A stretch of DNA of 11,036 nt, from assembly GCA_020441225.1 (NCBI GenBank), contig JAGRMP010000372.1, positions 1 through 11,036 of the forward strand, given 5' to 3'. Positions 1,245 through 9,019 of the stretch are shown one piece after another. The notes beneath the pieces were generated by a model. The model ran no database searches. It saw only the letters and a list, made by a program, of their open reading frames with translations, and was not told where the DNA came from. Origin of the DNA: Maritimibacter sp. (GTDB lineage Bacteria; Pseudomonadota; Alphaproteobacteria; Rhodobacterales; Rhodobacteraceae). Made by a program: the position numbers and the translations under genes. The number at the start of each line of letters is the position of its first letter. Within the stretch, counting starts at the first letter, position 1.

Positions 1245-2864
1245 CTACGGTCCGTCGAGGCCGAGCAGCACACCGGGGTCGATCAGGCCCACCCGGCGGG
1301 CGAGGCTGACGGGATAGCTGTCGTCGCGGGCGAAGGCGTCGAGCGTGAAGGTTTCTTCCAGCGCGGAGAGGTCCCTGACCATCCGCCCGGCCCGGTCGTG
1401 CTCTCCCTCGTGCGCATAGAGTGCGAGCAGGTAGCGTCGGGGCGGGCGGAACGAGGGGGCGATGGCGGCCGAGGTTTCGAGCGACCGGCGCGCCAGCTCC
1501 ATCCGGCCGGCGGCGAGCGCGGCGAGGCCGAGCTGGAACTGGCACCAGAATTGCAGGGGCGTGCTCCAGGCAAGCTGGGTCGCGGTCGCCGCGTTGTCGA
1601 GCGCCCGGTCGAAGGACTGGGTGTAGAGCGCGACATTGGCCTGCGCCCACCAGGCGAGCGGGTTGGCGCGGTTGGTCCGCAGCGCCAGCGCCGCGAGTTC
1701 CGCCCCCGCGTCGATATCCCATTTCAGGAAGACCTGGGCATTGGCCGCGGCGGCGAGGACCTGCGAGTTGAACGGATCCGCCTCGATTGCCTTGGCCGCG
1801 AGATACAGCCCCTGTTCCACGGTCTCTTCCGGCGTGGCGGTGAGGCGCTCGATGTCGCGAATGACCGAGATCTGCGCGCGCATGCCCAGCACGACACCGC
1901 GCTCGCGACCGTCCTGAAGCCCGATCAGGCTGCTGTCGGTGCGGGTGAGCGTGTCGGCGTCGAAGCTGAACACCCGATGCGAGGACCGCGCGAGAACCTG
2001 CGCCTCGGCGTCCAGACCCGGCGGCAGATCGCCCGCCCGCGCGACCTCGCGCAGGATCGCGACCTGGGTATTGGCGAGCAACGCCATCAGGGGCGCGGTG
2101 TCGTCCAGCCTGTCCGGGGCGACCTCGACGGTCTCGGTGGCGGACCACAGATAGCGCCGGCGTGCCGGCCGCTGCACCGACACCCGCGCGCCGTGCCGGC
2201 CGTGCCCGAGCGGCGTGAGCGCGAGGGTGACGTCGATCGCCAACGGATCGTCCGGGTCGTTCCCGCCGGCAGCGATCTCGGCGACACCGGTTTCAAGCAG
2301 GCTCTGGGACAGGCGCGAGATGAGATGCGATTCGAGATACCGGCTCAGGCCATCGCCCGCGCCGGACCCCTCGAGAGCGATCCGCCAGCGCCGCGGCCCG
2401 TGAACATACGGTGCGGTCGGAACCGGCCCGCCGCCGATCTGCTCCGGGCCGCTGCGCTGGATCGTCAACCAGGCGTCGAACTCGGGGTCGTCGATGTCGA
2501 TCCCTTCGAGGAAGGCGGCCGGGTCAAGCCCGGCCCGCGCGCCCCAGTCGGAGGTGAACAGGGCCGGGTCCAGCCAGACCGCGCGCCGGTCGGCCTGGAG
2601 CAGGTCCGCCCAGGGCGACAGCGCGCGCCGGAGCGTGGCCAGGACCTGGCGCAGGTTGGCGCTGCCGCTCGACGGGTCGCTGCGGCTCCACAGCTTGTCC
2701 TGCAGCCAGCTCCGGGTGTGTTTGTGTTGCGGGGCGGTGACCAGCAGGGCCAGAAGCGCCTGTCCTTTCGCGCTCCGCGGAGTCAGGTCCACGCCGTCGC
2801 GTCCGGTCACGCTGAACGCGCCGAACAGGTGAATCTTCACCGGTTTGACCCCGACCTCCGTCAT
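1245..2864 (-). CDS. SARP/BTAD-family transcriptional regulator with TPR tail
   Basis: This is a predicted cytoplasmic DNA-binding regulator of 539 residues. Residues about 8-85 form an OmpR-type winged helix; the stretch PRSAKGQALLALL through LRQVLATLRRAL is characteristic of AfsR/SARP proteins. A short BTAD-like segment follows (about 100-140), ending in FLEGIDIDDPEFDAWL, a common signature in this family. Residues about 155-265 form an alpha/beta region reminiscent of the TolB/FlgO-like middle domain of CadC- and cyclase-type regulators. Residues about 335-500 look like TPR repeats. No NB-ARC ATPase, kinase or membrane segment is seen, so the effector is unknown. Two starts are possible: ATG at 2864, with GGTGGAG only 3 bp upstream, or GTG at 2873, adding three residues. 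It diverges from the haloperoxidase/protease pair across about 136 bp, which suggests it controls them. Fold call is strong; targets are inferred. Confidence 0.85.
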   Translation of the reverse strand: MTEVGVKPVKIHLFGAFSVTGRDGVDLTPRSAKGQALLALLVTAPQHKHTRSWLQDKLWSRSDPSSGSANLRQVLATLRRALSPWADLLQADRRAVWLDPALFTSDWGARAGLDPAAFLEGIDIDDPEFDAWLTIQRSGPEQIGGGPVPTAPYVHGPRRWRIALEGSGAGDGLSRYLESHLISRLSQSLLETGVAEIAAGGNDPDDPLAIDVTLALTPLGHGRHGARVSVQRPARRRYLWSATETVEVAPDRLDDTAPLMALLANTQVAILREVARAGDLPPGLDAEAQVLARSSHRVFSFDADTLTRTDSSLIGLQDGRERGVVLGMRAQISVIRDIERLTATPEETVEQGLYLAAKAIEADPFNSQVLAAAANAQVFLKWDIDAGAELAALALRTNRANPLAWWAQANVALYTQSFDRALDNAATATQLAWSTPLQFWCQFQLGLAALAAGRMELARRSLETSAAIAPSFRPPRRYLLALYAHEGEHDRAGRMVRDLSALEETFTLDAFARDDSYPVSLARRVGLIDPGVLLGLDGP

Positions 2865-2945
2865 CGTCTCCACCGAGCGCTGGGCTCCGCCCCCCGGGGG
2901 TGCGGATGCCCGAAACCGTCGACGCTTCCTGTACCGAAGGCCAGC

Positions 2946-2974
2946 TTGACACGACTAGCGAGCATTTCAAAACT
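2946..2974 (+). promoter_or_regulatory. Candidate promoter of the haloperoxidase-like/protease operon
   Basis: A perfect -35 hexamer TTGACA (2946-2951) is followed after 17 bp by AAAACT (2969-2974), a poor -10 matching 3 of 6. Transcription would begin about 20 bp before the start codon at 3001. The stretch 2965-2988 is the only AT-rich part of this intergenic region. A good -35 with a weak -10 is compatible with an activator-dependent promoter, and a regulator gene diverges from the same gap. I could not find clear repeated operator words here. Confidence 0.4.
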
Positions 2975-3000
2975 ATTGGTTAATTTTCGGAGAGAACGAA

Positions 3001-4119
3001 ATGACATTTTCACAGAATTTCCTCGGCGGCGGCAAAGGCGGTGGCAAAGGCGGTGGCAAGGGCGGTGGCAAAGGTGGCGGCAAGGGCGGTGGCAAGGGCG
3101 GCGGGAAAGGCTATGACGCCGACGCGTCGATCGCCGACGCGCGGCTGACGATCCACGATGCCATCGCTGCCGACTGGGACGGCACGCCGGGGCGCGCGGT
3201 GTCGGCCTACCAGCCGTCCGATGACATCAAATACCTGTCGCAGACCCGCCGGCTCGATCTCCTGCTCGGCGTGGCGATGTCGGCCTTCACGGTGCGGGCC
3301 GCAGGCACCGGCACCGCCTGCACGGTCGCGGTCGGTGGGCAGGACATCTGCACCCTCGCGCGTCCCGAAATCGCGCTCCTTGAACGCCAGCTGGGCTGGG
3401 TGCGGGCCTATTCCGATCTGCGTGCCGACCGGGAAGGCGAGATCCTCGTGCAGCTCGACGAGATCGTCTCCGCCTTTTCCGGCGTGAGCGCCTTCGATCT
3501 GCCCTCGCGCGAGGCGACGGCGGAGTTCGTTGCCCTGACCCAGGACGTGGCGATCATGGTCGAGATGCAGGTGAAGCATTTCCTCCGGTCGCCGCGGCCG
3601 GCGGATTTCTCCGAACGGGTGGTGCCGCTGATCGACACGCCCGACCACAGCACCTTCCCCTCGGGCCATTCGACCGAGGCCTTCGCCATCGCCACCGTGC
3701 TTGCGCGGATCGAGCGCGGGCAGCGGCCCCAGGCGGCGGGCGGCGGGATCCTGTTCCCGCTGGCGCACCGGATCGCGGTCAACCGCACCGTGGCCGGGGT
3801 GCATTTCCCGGTCGATTCCGCCGCCGGCGCGCGGCTCGGCTGCGCCATCGGCGAGGCGATCTGCGCGCTGGCGGGCGGCGGCAACGCGGCCCGCTACGAC
3901 TACGACTGCAACATCGGTCCGGCCGGGGGCGATCCCGCGAAGCACAACCCGGATTTCACCCGCCGGGCTCTGGCCGATTTCCTCGCCGCCCAACCGGCCG
4001 ACGACGTCACTGTCGCCCCGCCCGCCAACCCGGCGCTGGCCGCGCGCTGGCAGGCGGCCCTTGCGGAATGGCCCGACCGCGGCGGCTACGACCCGGACGG
4101 CGACGGCGATCCGCAATGA
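3001..4119 (+). CDS. Vanadium haloperoxidase/PAP2-fold protein with N-terminal GGGK repeats
   Basis: The protein has 372 residues. After MTFSQNFL come seven GGGK units (residues 9-36), then a mostly helical domain. The full PAP2/vanadium-haloperoxidase signature is present: K192-x6-R199-P200, P220-SGH223, and R262-x5-H268-x3-D272. In this superfamily these residues bind phosphate or vanadate and H268 or H223 act in catalysis. The spacing and the segment PLIDTPDHSTFPSGHS resemble bacterial vanadium-dependent haloperoxidase-like proteins more than membrane lipid phosphatases, and I see no run of transmembrane helices. No Sec or Tat signal is visible, so it is predicted soluble and cytoplasmic unless exported unconventionally. 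The tail YDPDGDGDPQ is acidic. The start is supported by GGAGAG six bases upstream. The stop overlaps the protease start (ATGA), implying translational coupling. Haloperoxidase versus acid phosphatase activity cannot be decided from sequence. Confidence 0.88.
   Translation: MTFSQNFLGGGKGGGKGGGKGGGKGGGKGGGKGGGKGYDADASIADARLTIHDAIAADWDGTPGRAVSAYQPSDDIKYLSQTRRLDLLLGVAMSAFTVRAAGTGTACTVAVGGQDICTLARPEIALLERQLGWVRAYSDLRADREGEILVQLDEIVSAFSGVSAFDLPSREATAEFVALTQDVAIMVEMQVKHFLRSPRPADFSERVVPLIDTPDHSTFPSGHSTEAFAIATVLARIERGQRPQAAGGGILFPLAHRIAVNRTVAGVHFPVDSAAGARLGCAIGEAICALAGGGNAARYDYDCNIGPAGGDPAKHNPDFTRRALADFLAAQPADDVTVAPPANPALAARWQAALAEWPDRGGYDPDGDGDPQ
3025..3108 (+). repeat. Seven 12-bp tandem units encoding GGGK
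   Basis: The units run without interruption from 3025 to 3108. The third bases vary among units (ggc/ggt/ggg for glycine, aaa/aag for lysine) while every unit encodes Gly-Gly-Gly-Lys. This pattern points to maintenance of the peptide rather than very recent slippage. The encoded segment should be disordered and strongly basic. The G-rich strand also has many GG pairs, so a weak two-tier G-quadruplex is conceivable. Confidence 0.97.
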
Positions 4120-6107
4120 CCGGCTGGACCGACTGGCAGGCGCATGACCGGGCCTACCGGTCCCCCTATGTCGACTGGGAAGTCGCGCTGTTCGACCGGC
4201 TCGGCAGGCTCGACGCGATGACCATGATCCCGGTCCCGCCGCTGCTCGTCGGGTCCGAGCGGGGCGGCGCGGCGCAACCGGGTGCGCGCGAGGTCTTCCC
4301 CGTGCCCAGCGACGCGGCCAATCCCGATCCGGCGGCCAACCTGCCCGCCGACGGCGTGATCGCTCCGGCCGATCCGGCGGATCTTCCGGTGCTCGACCCG
4401 GACCTTGCCCCGACCACGGTGGTGGTCGGCGTGATCGACATCGACATCGGCCTCGGCCACCGCCGGTTTCGCACGGGCGACGGCAAGACCCGCGTGCTCG
4501 GCGCCTGGCAGCAGGGCGCACCCTGGCGCGCCGAGACCCGTCCGGGCCTGCCCTTCGGCGAGGAGATCTTTTCGGGCGGGATCGACGCGCTGCTCGCCGC
4601 CCACCGGCTGGACGGTCCGACCGGCACGCTGGACCACGACGGCTTCTACGGTCGGCTGGGGCTGATTTCCCACGACAGGATCGACGGCATGGGCGCGCTT
4701 GCGCATTCCGCGGCGCACGGGACCCATGTGCTCGGGCTCGCAGCAGGGCAGGACCCGGGCGACGACCCGGACGGGTTCAGCGACAATGTCCGGCTCCTGG
4801 TGGTGAACCTGCCGCCGCCGTCGTTCTTCGGCGAAGGGGGCGCCTTTCTCGACTACTACCTCTCCTACGGGCTGCAATGGATCGTGAAGACCCATGCCGC
4901 CATCGTCGCGGCAAGCGGTGCCGTCGCCGCGCCGCCGCTGATCGTGAATATCTCCTTCGGCAAGCAGGCGGGCGCGGCGGACCCGTGGCAGGCCTCGGAT
5001 ACGCTGGCGCTGTCGGTGCCGCAGGGCGCGGCGGCCCCGGTGATCCTGGTGCCCGCGGGGAACGACAACCTCGAGCGCTGCCACGCGCAGTTCGCCCTCG
5101 GCGACGACGCGCAAAGCCTCGCCTGGCGGGTCCAACCCGATGACGAGACCTCGAATTTCCTCGAGATCTGGGTCCTGCCCGAATACCGCGCCGGGGCGGC
5201 GGGGGGGCTGCCGGATGTGGCGCTGCCGCTCGAAATCGATCTCGAACTGCCCGACGGCACCCGGTCCGGATTCGGCACGCCGCAGCACGGAGCGGTGCGC
5301 GAGCTCTCGGGCGGGCTCGGGCGGATCTACTGCGACTGGGTCTACAGCGAACACCGCGCCGCCTACCGGCTGCGCTATCTCGTCTGCCTGGCGCCCGACC
5401 GGCTGATGGTGCCGGACGATCCCGCCTGCCGCGGCGCGCCGGCGGGAGGGTACCGGCTGCACCTCAGGAACAGCTCGGCCCACAAGCGGCTCGACGTGAG
5501 CGCCCGGATCCAGACCGACGAGGCCACCTTGCCCTCGGCGCGCAATGCAAGGCGGGCCTATTTCGAGGATCCGGACTACGCGATGTTCGAGCCGAGCGGG
5601 CGGCGCGCCGATACCTATCCCTATCCGCTCGACCCCCGGGTCGGAAGCTTCGACACCGACAGCCCGATCCGGCGGCACGGGACGATGAACGCCTATGCGG
5701 CCCATGAACAGGTGGTGGCGATCGCGGGCTTCCGGCTCACCGACGGGCGGCCCGCGCCCTATTCCGCGTCCGGGCTCGGGCTCGGCGATGCGCGCTGGGG
5801 ACGGGCGGGACCGACCGCGGCCTTTCCGAGCGACGATGGCGCGGCGCATTTCGGGCTCCGGTCCGACGGAGCGCGCGACGGCTCGACCGTGGCGCTGCAG
5901 GGGACGAGCTTTGCCTGTGCGGCAGCGACGCGGTTCGTGACCGAGGCGACGCTGGACGCGCTGATCCAGGGCCGCGCCCCGGCGCTCTCCGAGACGTTCA
6001 GCGACGGTGCGCAAGGCGCAGCCTGGCATGGCCCGGCCGTCGCGCTGGCCAAGGCGGGATGGGGACGGGTGCCGTTCCAGCCCGCCCGCCGGATCGACCG
6101 CATGTAG
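4116..6107 (+). CDS. Subtilisin-like S8 family serine protease with large insertion
   Basis: This is a predicted endopeptidase of 663 residues. The subtilase catalytic set is complete: D108 in VVGVIDIDIG, H201 in AAHGTHVLG, oxyanion N316 in LVPAGNDN and S598 in QGTSFAC. Between N316 and S598 lie about 280 residues, roughly twice what a minimal subtilisin has. This holds a probable beta-rich insertion (about 335-470) with segments such as NFLEIWVLPEY and YRLHLRNSS. The first 100 residues do not resemble an I9 propeptide, and there is no signal peptide, so action inside the cell or unconventional export is implied. The start is the ATG at 4116, which overlaps the previous stop by ATGA; in-frame codons further upstream lie inside the preceding gene and are less likely. 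The substrate is unknown. The partner gene, or the orphan protein downstream, are the obvious candidates by context only. Confidence 0.92.
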   Translation: MTGWTDWQAHDRAYRSPYVDWEVALFDRLGRLDAMTMIPVPPLLVGSERGGAAQPGAREVFPVPSDAANPDPAANLPADGVIAPADPADLPVLDPDLAPTTVVVGVIDIDIGLGHRRFRTGDGKTRVLGAWQQGAPWRAETRPGLPFGEEIFSGGIDALLAAHRLDGPTGTLDHDGFYGRLGLISHDRIDGMGALAHSAAHGTHVLGLAAGQDPGDDPDGFSDNVRLLVVNLPPPSFFGEGGAFLDYYLSYGLQWIVKTHAAIVAASGAVAAPPLIVNISFGKQAGAADPWQASDTLALSVPQGAAAPVILVPAGNDNLERCHAQFALGDDAQSLAWRVQPDDETSNFLEIWVLPEYRAGAAGGLPDVALPLEIDLELPDGTRSGFGTPQHGAVRELSGGLGRIYCDWVYSEHRAAYRLRYLVCLAPDRLMVPDDPACRGAPAGGYRLHLRNSSAHKRLDVSARIQTDEATLPSARNARRAYFEDPDYAMFEPSGRRADTYPYPLDPRVGSFDTDSPIRRHGTMNAYAAHEQVVAIAGFRLTDGRPAPYSASGLGLGDARWGRAGPTAAFPSDDGAAHFGLRSDGARDGSTVALQGTSFACAAATRFVTEATLDALIQGRAPALSETFSDGAQGAAWHGPAVALAKAGWGRVPFQPARRIDRM

Positions 6108-6152
6108 CCGGACCCCGCGACGGCAGCCGCCAACCCGCCCGGCACAGGCGGC

Positions 6153-6176
6153 GCCGGCCCCCGCGGGAGTGCCGGC
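6153..6176 (+). terminator. GC-rich hairpin after the protease gene
   Basis: GCCGGC (6153-6158) pairs with GCCGGC (6171-6176) around a 12-nt loop that contains the self-complementary CCCGCGGG. It lies about 45 bp beyond the protease stop. No U-tract follows on the plus strand, so any termination would be weak or Rho-dependent. Confidence 0.28.
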
Positions 6177-6189
6177 CGGCGGCAAAAAT

Positions 6190-6205
6190 TGTGACCGCGT
6201 TCACG
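6190..6205 (+). promoter_or_regulatory. CRP/FNR-family-like operator
   Basis: TGTGA-CCGCGT-TCACG matches the CRP consensus TGTGA-N6-TCACA at 9 of 10 informative bases. It lies about 50 bp upstream of the proposed -10 box, within the range where CRP-family activators often act. Its right half-site is also the first ATCACG-like repeat, so the match could be a by-product of that array. Which Crp/Fnr protein would bind is unknown. Confidence 0.35.
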
Positions 6206-6238
6206 CAAATCACGCCCGGAATCACGAAACGATCACGC
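6200..6238 (+). promoter_or_regulatory. Four ATCACGC-like direct repeats, possible SARP operator
   Basis: Heptamers TTCACGC (6200), ATCACGC (6209), ATCACGA (6221) and ATCACGC (6232) lie on one strand with starts 9, 12 and 11 bp apart, close to one helical turn. SARP proteins are known to bind heptameric direct repeats about 11 bp apart, with the last one roughly 8 bp upstream of the -10 box. Here the last heptamer ends 6 bp before TGTAAT. The only SARP gene in the window is at 1245-2864; its role here is inferred. Confidence 0.42.
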
Positions 6239-6244
6239 GCGCCC

Positions 6245-6250
6245 TGTAAT
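6245..6250 (+). promoter_or_regulatory. Candidate -10 box of the orphan gene
   Basis: TGTAAT matches the TATAAT consensus at 5 of 6 positions. No -35 hexamer lies at 16-18 bp; the ATCACG repeats occupy that place instead, as in activator-dependent promoters. Transcription from here would give a leader of about 170 nt before the start at 6427. Confidence 0.35.
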
Positions 6251-6340
6251 CAACGGCGAGTCATGAGTTCCTGCGCGCGATGCCGGGTCCGTTTCCAGCG
6301 GTCCGTCTCGCGCGCATTCACACCAGAATTATTCGCCGCC

Positions 6341-6360
6341 GCGCCCCGAAAAGGGGGCGC
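6341..6360 (+). other. Strong leader hairpin upstream of the orphan gene
   Basis: GCGCCCC (6341-6347) pairs perfectly with GGGGCGC (6354-6360) around a GAAAAG loop. It sits about 66 bases before the start codon, inside the proposed leader RNA. There is no U-tract, so an mRNA-stability or translation role is more likely than termination. Function unproved. Confidence 0.35.
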
Positions 6361-6426
6361 CTGCGGTCCCCATACGGGCCGGTGGTCGACCGCCCCCTTG
6401 CAAAACGGCGTGCAAAAGGAACCGTG

Positions 6427-7143
6427 ATGATGCGCTCGCTCTCCTTCGTGATCGATGAAACGGTGACCACGCAGGTCTGTGTGACGGGCAATCTCGACGG
6501 GACGCTGTCGTTCGAATTCACGGTGTTCGGGGCGGGCAATGCCGCGACGCTGGAGGCCGTTTTCATCGACCTGATCCGGCCGCTTCCGGGCGGCGGGCTC
6601 AGGGTGTACGGCGATGCGGGGCTCTCCCTCGGGCCCTGCGTCGCCGAAGGCACCGACACGCTCGGCCGTGCGGCGACGCTGGCGCGCCCGGCGGTCGATG
6701 CGCGGGGGGGGTTCGACATCGGCATCGCCTTCGGCCCGTGCGATCCCGCGGCGCCGGCCGCGCGCCGTACCGGCTTCACCCTCGCGCACGACACCGCGGT
6801 GCTGTCGCTCGACCTTTTCGATCTTGCGGGTATCGGACTGCGCTACCGTCAGCCCACGGCGGTCGAGATCCTGGCCCGCGCGGCGGGAGATCCGGGCGAC
6901 GTCGTGCAGGTCTGGCCCGACCAGGAGGTGCTCGAGGTGATCGAGTTCCGGGCCGTGGGCACCCGGCCCCTCGCCGGCAATCCCGGCGCCGGCAATCTTG
7001 GCGGCGGGGCGCTCGCCGTGCTCGACCTTGCCGGAACGCAGGACGTCTTCGCCGAGCTCGCGCGCGAACAGGGCTGGTGGGGCGTCGACGGGCCGCAGCC
7101 GTTCTATGACGGATTGTCGCCCGCGTTCTCGCCCGACCGCTGA
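6427..7143 (+). CDS. Hypothetical beta-rich protein of unknown function
   Basis: I do not recognise a named family. The product has 238 residues, no signal peptide and no transmembrane helix. Alternating hydrophobic stretches (QVCVTGNLDGTLSFEFTVFG, EAVFIDLI, GFDIGIAFGP, GFTLAHDTAVLSLDLF) suggest a beta-sandwich. From memory these resemble a domain found in large alphaproteobacterial RTX/VCBS-type secreted proteins, where FDVGIEFGTPG and SFTLS segments recur; this is a recollection, not a search result. Residues 180-196 are Gly/Asn/Ala-rich, and the end is GWWGVDGPQPFYDGLSPAF. The start is the first of two tandem ATGs, six bases after AAAAGGA; an in-frame GTG lies just before. The gene has its own promoter-like region and faces the TRAP operon convergently. 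Its link to the haloperoxidase/protease pair is by position and shared regulator hypothesis only. Confidence 0.75.
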   Translation: MMRSLSFVIDETVTTQVCVTGNLDGTLSFEFTVFGAGNAATLEAVFIDLIRPLPGGGLRVYGDAGLSLGPCVAEGTDTLGRAATLARPAVDARGGFDIGIAFGPCDPAAPAARRTGFTLAHDTAVLSLDLFDLAGIGLRYRQPTAVEILARAAGDPGDVVQVWPDQEVLEVIEFRAVGTRPLAGNPGAGNLGGGALAVLDLAGTQDVFAELAREQGWWGVDGPQPFYDGLSPAFSPDR

Positions 7144-7156
7144 GGCTTGTGCGACC

Positions 7157-7188
7157 CTGACGGGGGTGGCGCGGTGCGCACCGGTCAG
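7157..7188. terminator. Possible bidirectional terminator between convergent genes
   Basis: The 41-bp gap between the orphan gene and dctM contains a perfect 12-bp palindrome CGGTGCGCACCG (7172-7183), enclosed by CTGAC (7157-7161) and GTCAG (7184-7188); the right arm covers the dctM stop codon. A hairpin can form on either transcript. Neither strand has a U-tract, so the call rests on position and symmetry. Confidence 0.35.
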
Positions 7189-8480
7189 CCCGGGTAGCCC
7201 ATCAGACGGGGCAGCCAGAGCACCAGGTCGGGCAGGCAGATCATCGCGCCGAGCGCGATCACCAGCACGGCAAGAAACCCCCAGATCTCGCGAATGATCT
7301 CCCTGAGCGGGATCCCGGTCACGGCATTGGTCACGAACAGGAGCACGCCGTAGGGCGGGGTGATGAGCCCGATCATCGCGTTGACCACCATGAGCACACC
7401 GAAATGCACGAGATCGATCCCGAGTTCACGGGCGGTCGGCAGAAACAGCGGCACGATCACCAGGATCAGCGTGGTCGCGTCGAGCACCGCGCCGAGGAGC
7501 AGGACGAACAGGTTCACCCCGACGAGGAAAACCAGCGGCGGCAGCGCCGTCCCGGCCAGCGTCTCGGAGATCTTCGCCGGGATGTTCTCGCTGGCGACGA
7601 CGAAATTGAGCATCAGGGCCCCGGCGATGACCAGCCCGATGGCGGCCGAAGCGCGGGCGCTGTCGAGAAAGATGCCGTAGAGCGCGCGCCAGGACAGGGC
7701 GCGGTACACTGCCGCTGCGAGCAGGAGCGCATAGAGCGCGGCGATGGCCGCGGCCTCGGTCGGCGTGGCGATACCGCCGTAGATGCCCCCGAGCAGGAGC
7801 GCCGGCATCAGGAGCGCGGGGATGGCGCGCGCGGTCCGGCGCGGGAGCGCGGCCAGCGGCACCGGGTCTTCGGCGGCGAACCCGCGGCGGCGCGCGGCGC
7901 GGGCGTTCATGGCCATCAGCGCAAGCGCCATCGCAAGGCCCGGCAGGACCCCGGCGAGGAACAGCGCGCCGATGGACTGGCCCGAGACCAGCGCGTAGAG
8001 CACCATCGGGATCGAGGGCGGCACGATCGGGCCGATTGTGGCCGAGGCGGCGGTGAGCGCGGCGGCGTATCCGCGCGGATAGCGGTTCCCCTCGGTCATC
8101 ATCCCGGTGACGATCTTGCCGAGCCCGGCCGCGTCGGCGAGGGCGGAGCCGGACATGCCGGAAAAGATCACCGAGGCGACGATGTTGACATGCCCGAGCC
8201 CGCCGCGAAACCGTCCGACCAACGCTTGGGCGAAGCCGAGGAGCCGGTCGCTGATCGTGCCCGCGGTCATGATATTGGCGGCGGTGATGAAGAGCGGCAC
8301 GGCGAGCAGGACGAAGCTGCCGTAAAGCCCCTGCAGCGCGGTCTCGCCCGCAAGCGCCAGGTCGCGCCCGCCGAGGCCGAGATAGAGCAGGGTCGCGGCA
8401 AAGATCGCATAGGCCACCGGCATGCCGATCGCGGCGAGGCCGAACAGGACCACAAGCAGCGCGCCGAAGGCAAAGCTCAT
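7185..8480 (-). CDS. dctM: TRAP transporter large permease subunit DctM
   Basis: This 431-residue integral membrane protein is the ion-coupled transport subunit of a tripartite TRAP importer. It has about a dozen hydrophobic helices. Family landmarks are present: IFSGMSGSALADAAGLGKI (about 109-127), ASATIGPIVPPSIPMVLYAL (about 143-162), TPTEAAAIAALYAL, GAVLDATTLILVIVPLFLP and NAMIGLITPPYGVLLF. The length is normal for DctM. The start is the ATG at 8480, which overlaps the dctQ stop by ATGA, so the two are translationally coupled; the native Shine-Dalgarno sequence is weak. It is last in a dctP-dctQ-dctM operon. The substrate is set by DctP and cannot be read from this subunit. Confidence 0.95.
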   Translation of the reverse strand: MSFAFGALLVVLFGLAAIGMPVAYAIFAATLLYLGLGGRDLALAGETALQGLYGSFVLLAVPLFITAANIMTAGTISDRLLGFAQALVGRFRGGLGHVNIVASVIFSGMSGSALADAAGLGKIVTGMMTEGNRYPRGYAAALTAASATIGPIVPPSIPMVLYALVSGQSIGALFLAGVLPGLAMALALMAMNARAARRRGFAAEDPVPLAALPRRTARAIPALLMPALLLGGIYGGIATPTEAAAIAALYALLLAAAVYRALSWRALYGIFLDSARASAAIGLVIAGALMLNFVVASENIPAKISETLAGTALPPLVFLVGVNLFVLLLGAVLDATTLILVIVPLFLPTARELGIDLVHFGVLMVVNAMIGLITPPYGVLLFVTNAVTGIPLREIIREIWGFLAVLVIALGAMICLPDLVLWLPRLMGYPG

Positions 8481-9019
8481 GCCCCGTCGTCCCCGATTGT
8501 CGCGTCGAGCGGGTCGTCGGCCCCGTCGCCCCTGAGGTCGGCCTGGAGCAAGCACGCGGCGCGCCAGCCGTAGCGGGCCGCCAGGGCGAGCAGGAACACC
8601 GCAAAGACCGAGAACACGCTGCGCATCGGGATGCCCGCGCCGGTGACCGGGTTGCGCACGGTCGCGGTCTTCCGGATCGCCAGAAAGTCGATGTAATCCC
8701 AGCTCGGTACGACCGCCCAGGCCATGGCGACGGCGATGGTGGCGGCGCAGACCAGGGCCAGACGTCGGCGCAGCCGGCGCGGCGCGGCGCGGGTGAAGAC
8801 GTCAAAGCGGATGTGGTCGCGCTCTCCGAGGGTGAAGGCGGCGGTGAAGAACACCAGCCAGACCCAGAGGATCAGGCTGAGTTCCAGGGTCCAGCCGAAG
8901 GGCGTCTGCATCACCAGCCGCGAGACGATCTGGACCAGGAAGGTGAGAAACAGCGCCGCCAGCAGCGTCGCCGAGATCGCCTCGGCGCCGCGGGTGAGCC
9001 AGTATGCCAGCCGTTTCAT
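8477..9019 (-). CDS. dctQ: TRAP transporter small permease subunit DctQ
   Basis: This 180-residue inner-membrane protein is the small subunit that pairs with DctM in a TRAP importer. Four hydrophobic segments are visible at about residues 14-36, 44-64, 86-106 and 130-148. The hallmark FGWTLELSLILWVWLVFFTAAFTLGERDHIRFDVF carries the conserved Glu, Trp and the H-x-R-x-D end of the DctQ family; it spans about residues 41-75. The tail after residue 160 is acidic. The start at 9019 has a strong GGGGGGAG upstream and lies 23 bp beyond the dctP stop. Family assignment is firm. Confidence 0.93.
   Translation of the reverse strand: MKRLAYWLTRGAEAISATLLAALFLTFLVQIVSRLVMQTPFGWTLELSLILWVWLVFFTAAFTLGERDHIRFDVFTRAAPRRLRRRLALVCAATIAVAMAWAVVPSWDYIDFLAIRKTATVRNPVTGAGIPMRSVFSVFAVFLLALAARYGWRAACLLQADLRGDGADDPLDATIGDDGA

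Follow-up and report, generated by a model that had tools for sequence, protein, structure and literature searches.

An 11,036-nt stretch of DNA from Maritimibacter sp. (contig JAGRMP010000372.1 of assembly GCA_020441225.1), referred to below as the window, carries from left to right a gene for a PotD-like binding protein (reverse strand), a regulator gene, genes for a PAP2/vanadium-haloperoxidase-fold enzyme (VC) and an S8 subtilase (S8), an orphan gene, and TRAP transporter genes (reverse strand). The four genes between the transport genes are the subject of this work, and all were found where a preliminary description of this DNA had placed them. The SARP-like TPR regulator (1245-2873, reverse strand; 542 aa) has an N-terminal winged helix and a TPR region at about residues 358-506. 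VC (3001-4119, forward strand; 372 aa; PAP2 E 6.5e-15) bears an N-terminal repeat tail, and S8 (4116-6107, forward strand; 663 aa; Peptidase_S8 E 4.1e-7) has a Csp-like jelly-roll insertion and conserved residues D108, H201, N316 and S598. The claimed translational coupling of the two was borne out, as the S8 ATG overlaps the VC stop codon (ATGA), and the nearest S8 homologues begin at the same place. The described count of seven exact GGGK units in VC also held, with their location now assigned to the N-terminus (residues 9-36; 3025-3108, forward strand). The tail is probably disordered, residues 1-27 of the VC model nearly all having a predicted local distance difference test (pLDDT) score below 50.

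The active-site motifs of VC (K192-x6-R199-P, H216, P220-S-G-H223 and R262...H268; 3574-3804, forward strand) align with those of solved PAP2/haloperoxidase chains and form a pocket that is common to acid phosphatases too. In our alignment A4 (52 sequences, some of them fragments) K192, R199, S221, H223, R262 and H268 are invariant, giving the K-x6-R...PSGH...R-x5-H pattern of a vanadate/phosphate pocket. H216, four residues before PSGH, is likewise invariant; the algal bromoperoxidase 1qi9 has a histidine there and the acid phosphatase 7f17 does not. The reaction of VC would be halide oxidation or phosphate release.

The trio of regulator, VC and S8 recurs in distant genomes, the outcome named beforehand as support for the set, being present in Rhodobacterales, Hyphomicrobiales (Bosea, Microvirga, Roseibium) and Paraburkholderia; what varies between loci is the position of the regulator and its N-terminal domain. 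A scan for S8 relatives, with one genome taken per species, yielded 26 loci, each with VC and a relative of the regulator, which is divergent in 20 and downstream of the VC-S8 pair in 6. A survey of 394 genomes of the family of G001, scoring at most five and two candidates per genome in its two first scans, gave 114 VC profile matches above 140 bits among the matches listed, distributed over 96 genomes (about a quarter). An S8 match lies at most 3 kb from 105 of these 114 and within 3 kb of none of the 36 weaker VC matches listed. Of the 105, 73 have S8 downstream on the strand of VC, 31 downstream on the other strand and one upstream. Across the phylum VC was found in 16 of 398 sampled genomes, seven of which also belong to the family sample. 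The VC-S8 pair resides on plasmids in Pontibrevibacter, Bosea, Microvirga, Roseibium, Phaeobacter (a P. inhibens strain) and Paraburkholderia. Several VC matches listed in the survey (e.g. in G320, G102 and G025), many of them of the convergent type, contain one internal stop codon; it probably lies near the C-terminal end, and those fetched score well as single open reading frames (ORFs).

For closer comparison, relative loci were fetched (numbered L001 onwards), providing 185 VC proteins with distinct cores, 148 strong (>140 bits) and 37 weak (matches below 40 bits were dropped); any difference in the core match counted as distinct, so that near relatives remain in the set. S8 lies within 2.5 kb of 145 of the 148 strong VC genes. 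In the remaining three, VC is at a contig end (L155), on a 5.5-kb contig (L121) or followed by only 2.3 kb (L142). A regulator-profile match, in some cases perhaps to TPR alone, occurs near 181 of the 185 VC genes (147/148 strong, 34/37 weak). The five annotated records examined (L057-L061) give VC and S8 no other names than PAP2 phosphatase, S8 peptidase or hypothetical protein; the regulator appears there as a TPR, winged-helix, cyclase or hypothetical protein. One ORF (L184, 2813-5041) joins the N-terminal part of the regulator, a piece resembling by eye the VC N-terminus, and an S8 domain, and looks like a collapsed trio.

The S8 model (pLDDT 87.9) has jelly-roll strands at residues 323-466 that interrupt the S8 domain. 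Its best Foldseek matches are CspB, CspA and CspC (E <=1.2e-20; CspB 4i0w at E 1.8e-23, TMt 0.74), and the next match is at 6.2e-7. A phmmer search against PDB chains returned no Csp chain and only tripeptidyl-peptidase 2 at E 0.77; we therefore describe S8 as a protein that may work like a Csp protease, not as one of them. The protease partner is exchangeable. Ten downstream ORFs from loci that lack S8 or have a weak VC were compared with Pfam, and two matched Peptidase_S8, four Peptidase_C1 (papain-like; L165, L168 and L174 above the cutoff, L169 below it) and one Peptidase_A4 (L078, E 3.4e-23), with three matching no protease. Among the 37 weak loci S8 is present in 14, a hidden Markov model (HMM) built from the four C1 proteins matches nine (four of them the loci of its own sources), and an HMM from the A4 protein matches two (one its own source). 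PAP2 and Peptidase_S8 are moreover united in a single chain in four ORFs (L192, L193, L201, L202); six further ORFs in this fusion test yielded a weak match to C39 in one case and none to a protease in the other five. In the fused L192, L201 and L202 the repeat lies inside the chain.

An action of the protease on the tailed enzyme, as proposed earlier, thus draws support from the swapping of protease classes, from the fusions and from the Csp-like fold, cleavage itself being a step that we infer. The proposal that the products lack signal peptides and act inside the cell agrees with the window, where none was seen by eye in VC, S8 or the orphan, and may not extend to two divergent fused relatives (L192, L201), the N-termini of which resemble twin-arginine translocation (Tat) signals; L202 has a stretch similar to theirs, but no start codon before it. 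A repeat-tailed VC that has no recognised protease (L172) is followed by a gene (3103-5001) encoding a SAM domain, a guanylate cyclase and an AAA ATPase.

A short tandem repeat is found in 180 of the 185 VC proteins (145/148 strong, 35/37 weak), the tail of strong VC starting at a median of 4 residues after the nearest methionine. The units are hypervariable, which the preliminary description missed because only one sequence was at hand: 179 scored arrays contain 113 distinct units (up to rotation), such as GGGK, GGGR, GQ, SAY, NAE, ENW, GWE, HAD, NSF, MAS, NR and TK, with periods of 3 (108 arrays), 4 (44), 2 (19), 5 (6) and 6 (2). No clear repeat was seen in L106, L140, L167 and L198; in L001 and L003 masked bases cover the tail, and L001 was counted as lacking a repeat. 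Among 9318 ORFs, drawn from VC-centred, partly redundant loci and not from random genomes, 188 VC ORFs carry perfect tandem runs of at least 12, as do 45 further ORFs; 44 of these 45 are other frames of VC tails and the last is a short unrelated ORF. The tail repeat is far beyond chance. Of 135 strong VC genes examined, 97 have a Shine-Dalgarno 4-mer ahead of the methionine of the tail; the fraction is 0.08 for upstream controls, and the first methionine after the tail is so preceded in 4 of 101. Annotated starts include the tail in all five loci with records (L057-L061). Judged by these start signals, the VC tail is translated in the family.

Three simple views of the tail were rejected. Glycine richness is not a common feature, given tails of NAE, SAY, NSF, ENW, HAD and NSQ. 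The tail is not specific to S8 pairs, since loci without S8 have it too. A fused substrate akin to ribosomally synthesised and post-translationally modified peptides, modified by the haloperoxidase, does not fit the many tails (GGA, GGGA, GQ, GS) that have no readily oxidised side chain. Units such as NNS, NSS, SNH, NTS, NHT and NFS (L143, L157, L158, L159, L160, L171) can be read as N-x-S/T sequons, which may be a habit of one clade.

The identity of the units within an array is not mirrored in their DNA. Only 67 of 1541 units deviate from the unit of their array, and codons differ between copies at a median of 0.63 of positions (0.43 in the window array). In codon tests, from which 6 of 172 arrays scoring below 9 were left out (L001, L050, L087, L106, L167, L170), synonymous difference between copies was 0.616 over 165 tails, compared with 0.573 expected from random draws on the codon usage of the same locus, and 110 of the 165 tails exceeded their expectation. 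Adjacent copies showed an excess of 0.124 over the expected synonymous difference, and no array with at least two copies (0/165; L140 has one copy of its unit) is identical in DNA throughout. The arrays are therefore not fresh products of slippage, recent slippage being ruled out as the origin of the tail by the comparison with random draws, and identical DNA in adjacent copies is avoided. Selection acts at the protein level on identical units. Between lineages the unit nevertheless changes: among gene pairs, which are not independent of one another, 8 of the 9 with cores at least 70% identical share it, the proportion falling to 25% of the 44 pairs at 60-70% and to at most 13% below that. A difference of one residue, carried by all copies, separates the two units in 14-26% of the pairs at 45-70% identity vs. 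4-5% of those below 40%. AGV and TGV arrays, for example, are found on cores that are 69% and beside proteases that are 81% identical.

The chemistry of the tail, charge above all, is matched by the core of the same protein. Tail hydropathy, charge or volume was compared with alignment columns by phylogenetic contrasts over 132 loci (comparisons with the regulator used 132 of 141 loci, nine lacking a full regulator), at a column occupancy of 70% in the first scan and 85% in later ones. In VC, 11 columns covaried with the tail vs. 3.3 expected by permutation, and none of 500 permutations reached as many. Sign flips on two trees gave, at a stricter threshold, 11 columns vs. 4.0 and 4.1 expected (p 0.003 for both) and, at a looser one, 29 and 25 vs. 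15 (p 0.0015 and 0.012). Over 157 VC columns the correlations of charge with charge were lopsided, from -0.45 to 0.19 on the VC+S8 tree and from -0.40 to 0.21 on the regulator tree. The eight columns with the lowest values correspond to window residues 149, 154, 50, 90, 153, 212, 82 and 142, and four of them (142, 149, 153, 154) lie in helix 124-153 or at the next residue (3370-3462, forward strand), with 142, 149 and 153 on one face by their spacing. At core position 105 (residue 153) the residue is acidic in 16 of the 18 proteins with basic tails, in 11% of the 115 with neutral tails and in none of the 8 with acidic ones, and a basic residue at core position 101 accompanies 4 of the 8 acidic tails (these look like one clade) and no neutral or basic tail, in tallies that count related sequences (e.g. 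L002, L003, L007). Set against tail charge, the summed charge of residues 142, 149, 153 and 154 gives r values of -0.59 and -0.53 (none of 5000 flips as extreme), which are inflated because the four sites were picked from the first scan, so that the column scans are the test. Net core charge showed no correlation with tail charge (r -0.13 and -0.03).

The explanation that we prefer, at a probability of roughly 0.42, is that the enzyme VC, of soluble PAP2/vanadium-haloperoxidase fold, carries a repeat tail that docks in the way of a propeptide and is processed by a dedicated partner protease, with a TPR regulator alongside. The core unit would be the enzyme-protease pair plus the regulator. The flexible tail of identical repeats would dock either on the core of its own chain or on an adjacent subunit. 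The protease, which is a Csp-like subtilase in the window and a papain-like, A4-type or fused S8 enzyme at other loci, would process the tailed VC much as Csp proteases process pro-SleC at its propeptide. Processing would free or activate VC, probably under conditions sensed via the regulator. Of this picture, the sequences show the gene association, the swapping and fusion of proteases, the translated tail, protein-level selection on identical units and the covariation of tail chemistry with the VC core.

Several points weigh against it, in addition to the inflated correlation and the related sequences in the tallies. Docking, tail cleavage, activation and the reaction of the enzyme are all inferred. 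The covariation in VC is weaker in a rank version at the strict threshold (9 columns vs. 4.0, p 0.036), the weakest of four settings. A charge match confined to one helix face is countered by the charge-opposed columns at 50, 82, 90 and 212, which share the top eight with 149 and 154 (the strongest), 142 and 153 of the helix; this spread makes docking slightly less likely, and also the more elaborate lock model considered next, and a role of the tail in assembly more so. Between S8 columns and the tail the covariation is weak (p 0.04-0.28; 0.05-0.16 in the scan with four settings), with no significant window, and the idea that the protease recognises particular residues of the repeat is therefore not supported. 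Finally, 8 of the 37 weak VC loci have no recognised protease (L166, L170, L171, L172, L173, L189, L198, L203), some of them on short stretches.

In a more far-reaching model, which we think somewhat unlikely, the tail would be a rewritable molecular lock: its periodicity would be selected and its sequence free, each lineage would rewrite all copies together with its own docking core in step, and a protease of any class could open it. Were this true, the repeat code peculiar to each system would insulate it from its paralogues and relatives.

The main rival to the docked tail is that the tail serves as a multivalent tether or assembly element: through their identical units the tails of one VC would bind many copies of that VC, giving rise to an oligomer or condensate, and the protease would act on an outside substrate common to both or else trim the assembly. 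The covariation of the tail with its own core would be expected here as well, and identical units, the low confidence of the tail in the model and the internal position of the repeat in fused L192, L201 and L202 all speak for it. It leaves unexplained, however, the near-constant presence of a neighbouring protease of some class, and on balance we consider it unlikely.

A third possibility is a peptide-signal circuit, in which the protease frees repeat peptides that are bound by the TPR domain of the regulator, comparable to RRNPP receptors or tandem pheromone precursors. The regulator-profile matches near almost all VC genes are in keeping with this, and designed repeat proteins are reported to bind tripeptide repeats (PMC10115654). 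Regulator TPR columns do covary with the tail on the VC+S8 tree (11 vs. 4.0, p 0.007; 22 vs. 12.7, p 0.019), with p 0.000-0.013 for the best 70-residue window. On the regulator tree, however, the signal vanishes (7 vs. 4.9, p 0.22; 15 vs. 13.5, p 0.37) and is therefore not relied upon, so that a tail-reading regulator is not robustly supported. Moreover, among the matches listed for 107 neighbours, no transporter family appears in more than two. We regard such a circuit as improbable.

More doubtful still is a role in defence or conflict, VC being an effector that the protease activates and the hypervariable tail the mark of an arms race. Swappable protease classes and hypervariable units would suit it, as would one locus near qatA; in bacterial gasdermin systems, too, the effector gene lies beside swappable proteases of different classes. 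Yet none of the four window proteins matches a PADLOC model at E 1, and no PADLOC family occurs in more than two of the 107 neighbours, and on these scans a defence island was rejected; the only family found in more than three of these neighbours is animal haem peroxidase (7 proteins), and a transcriptional regulator is atypical of defence systems. That the tail is neutral low-complexity sequence born of replication slippage is barely credible: copy number varies, units change between lineages and the window array is less codon-diverse than most (0.43 vs. a median of 0.63), but copies are codon-saturated, adjacent ones differ more than random ones, no multi-copy array (0/165) is identical in DNA throughout, tail chemistry is matched to the core, and the loss or degeneration of the tail that was looked for in many orthologues gave way to its opposite (a repeat in 180/185).

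The window regulator falls below Pfam cutoffs for both of its recognisable parts (Trans_reg_C E 0.0049, 17.4 bits vs. a cutoff of 26.2; TPR_2 E 0.0029), its NCBIfam TPR match at 358-506 is likewise below cutoff, and no BTAD match was found; it thus lacks the OmpR-type winged helix and BTAD domain above cutoffs by which a SARP would be recognised. The orphan (6427-7143, forward strand; 238 aa), which had been counted as a member of the set, dropped out of it, its profile being present in only 2 of the 26 loci; a search with it gave 11 matches including itself, and it has no Pfam, NCBIfam or PADLOC match. On this distribution the orphan is accessory and lies outside the core module. The SARP-like promoter proposed for it remains plausible: ATCACG direct repeats at 11-12 bp, a possible SARP site, precede the gene (6208-6241, forward strand; 5694-5731 in L001), in a block that is better conserved between the window and L001 than the surrounding spacer. 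The orphan may accordingly stand under a SARP-type regulator, as these repeats suggest, and no direct repeats were found in the spacer between regulator and VC (2860-3010). In L009, one of the two loci with the profile, the domain stands at the N-terminus of a 1595-aa cadherin/RTX protein (4059-8846), which is homologous to the orphan over its first 200 residues and is encoded directly upstream of VC; this relative comes in addition to the ten from the search.

Other genes are found near the trio in some loci; one of the comparisons of neighbours covered proteins of up to 650 aa. A protein of the animal haem peroxidase family, of about 590 aa, is encoded in 7 of the 26 (L005, L008, L010, L011, L014, L021, L024). 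Related genes occur in L002 (12121-13734) and L018 (6644-8302), the L002 member being a GMC oxidoreductase and a possible source of peroxide. A family of about 300 aa is present in 4 of the 26 (L011, L012, L021, L005); the one in L012, for which Pfam gave no match, resembles a lipoprotein by eye.

The open-licence PubMed Central papers searched gave no description of the trio. The enzyme-protease module appears to be undescribed, and no other system with such a tail is known to us or was found in that literature. It would represent an unstudied module in about a quarter of the sampled genomes of one family, more thinly spread across the phylum, and it poses an evolutionary question, in that repeats stay identical long enough for their codons to be randomised and yet the unit changes in all copies between lineages. 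More than 100 natural pairs of tail and core, with protease partners of several classes, are available for studying the joint evolution of a disordered repeat and a folded protein.

Among known systems, VC shares fold and catalytic motif with the vanadium haloperoxidases and class A acid phosphatases of the PAP2 superfamily, and has the histidine four residues before PSGH in common with 1qi9. The regulator has the winged-helix and TPR layout of SARP/BTAD regulators, with BTAD (L168) or Trans_reg_C (L061) above cutoff in related loci, but differs in its sub-cutoff matches in the window and in having guanylate cyclase as the N-terminal domain in L060 and L062. In bacterial gasdermin-protease pairs the effector gene likewise has proteases of more than one class as neighbours, whereas the VC module consists of an enzyme with a repeat tail and showed no defence context in the PADLOC scans. 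The closest parallel is with the Csp proteases and pro-SleC of clostridia, where a subtilase with a central jelly-roll insertion serves an enzyme with an N-terminal extension. Pro-SleC is reported to be cleaved with release of its propeptide, and only about 5% of it is cleaved when the catalytic serine of CspB is mutated (PMC3567191). The partner in our module is a PAP2-fold enzyme instead of a cortex hydrolase, and a repeat tail and a TPR regulator are added; the module would therefore resemble Csp/SleC in its presumed working, as an analogue and not as a member of that system.

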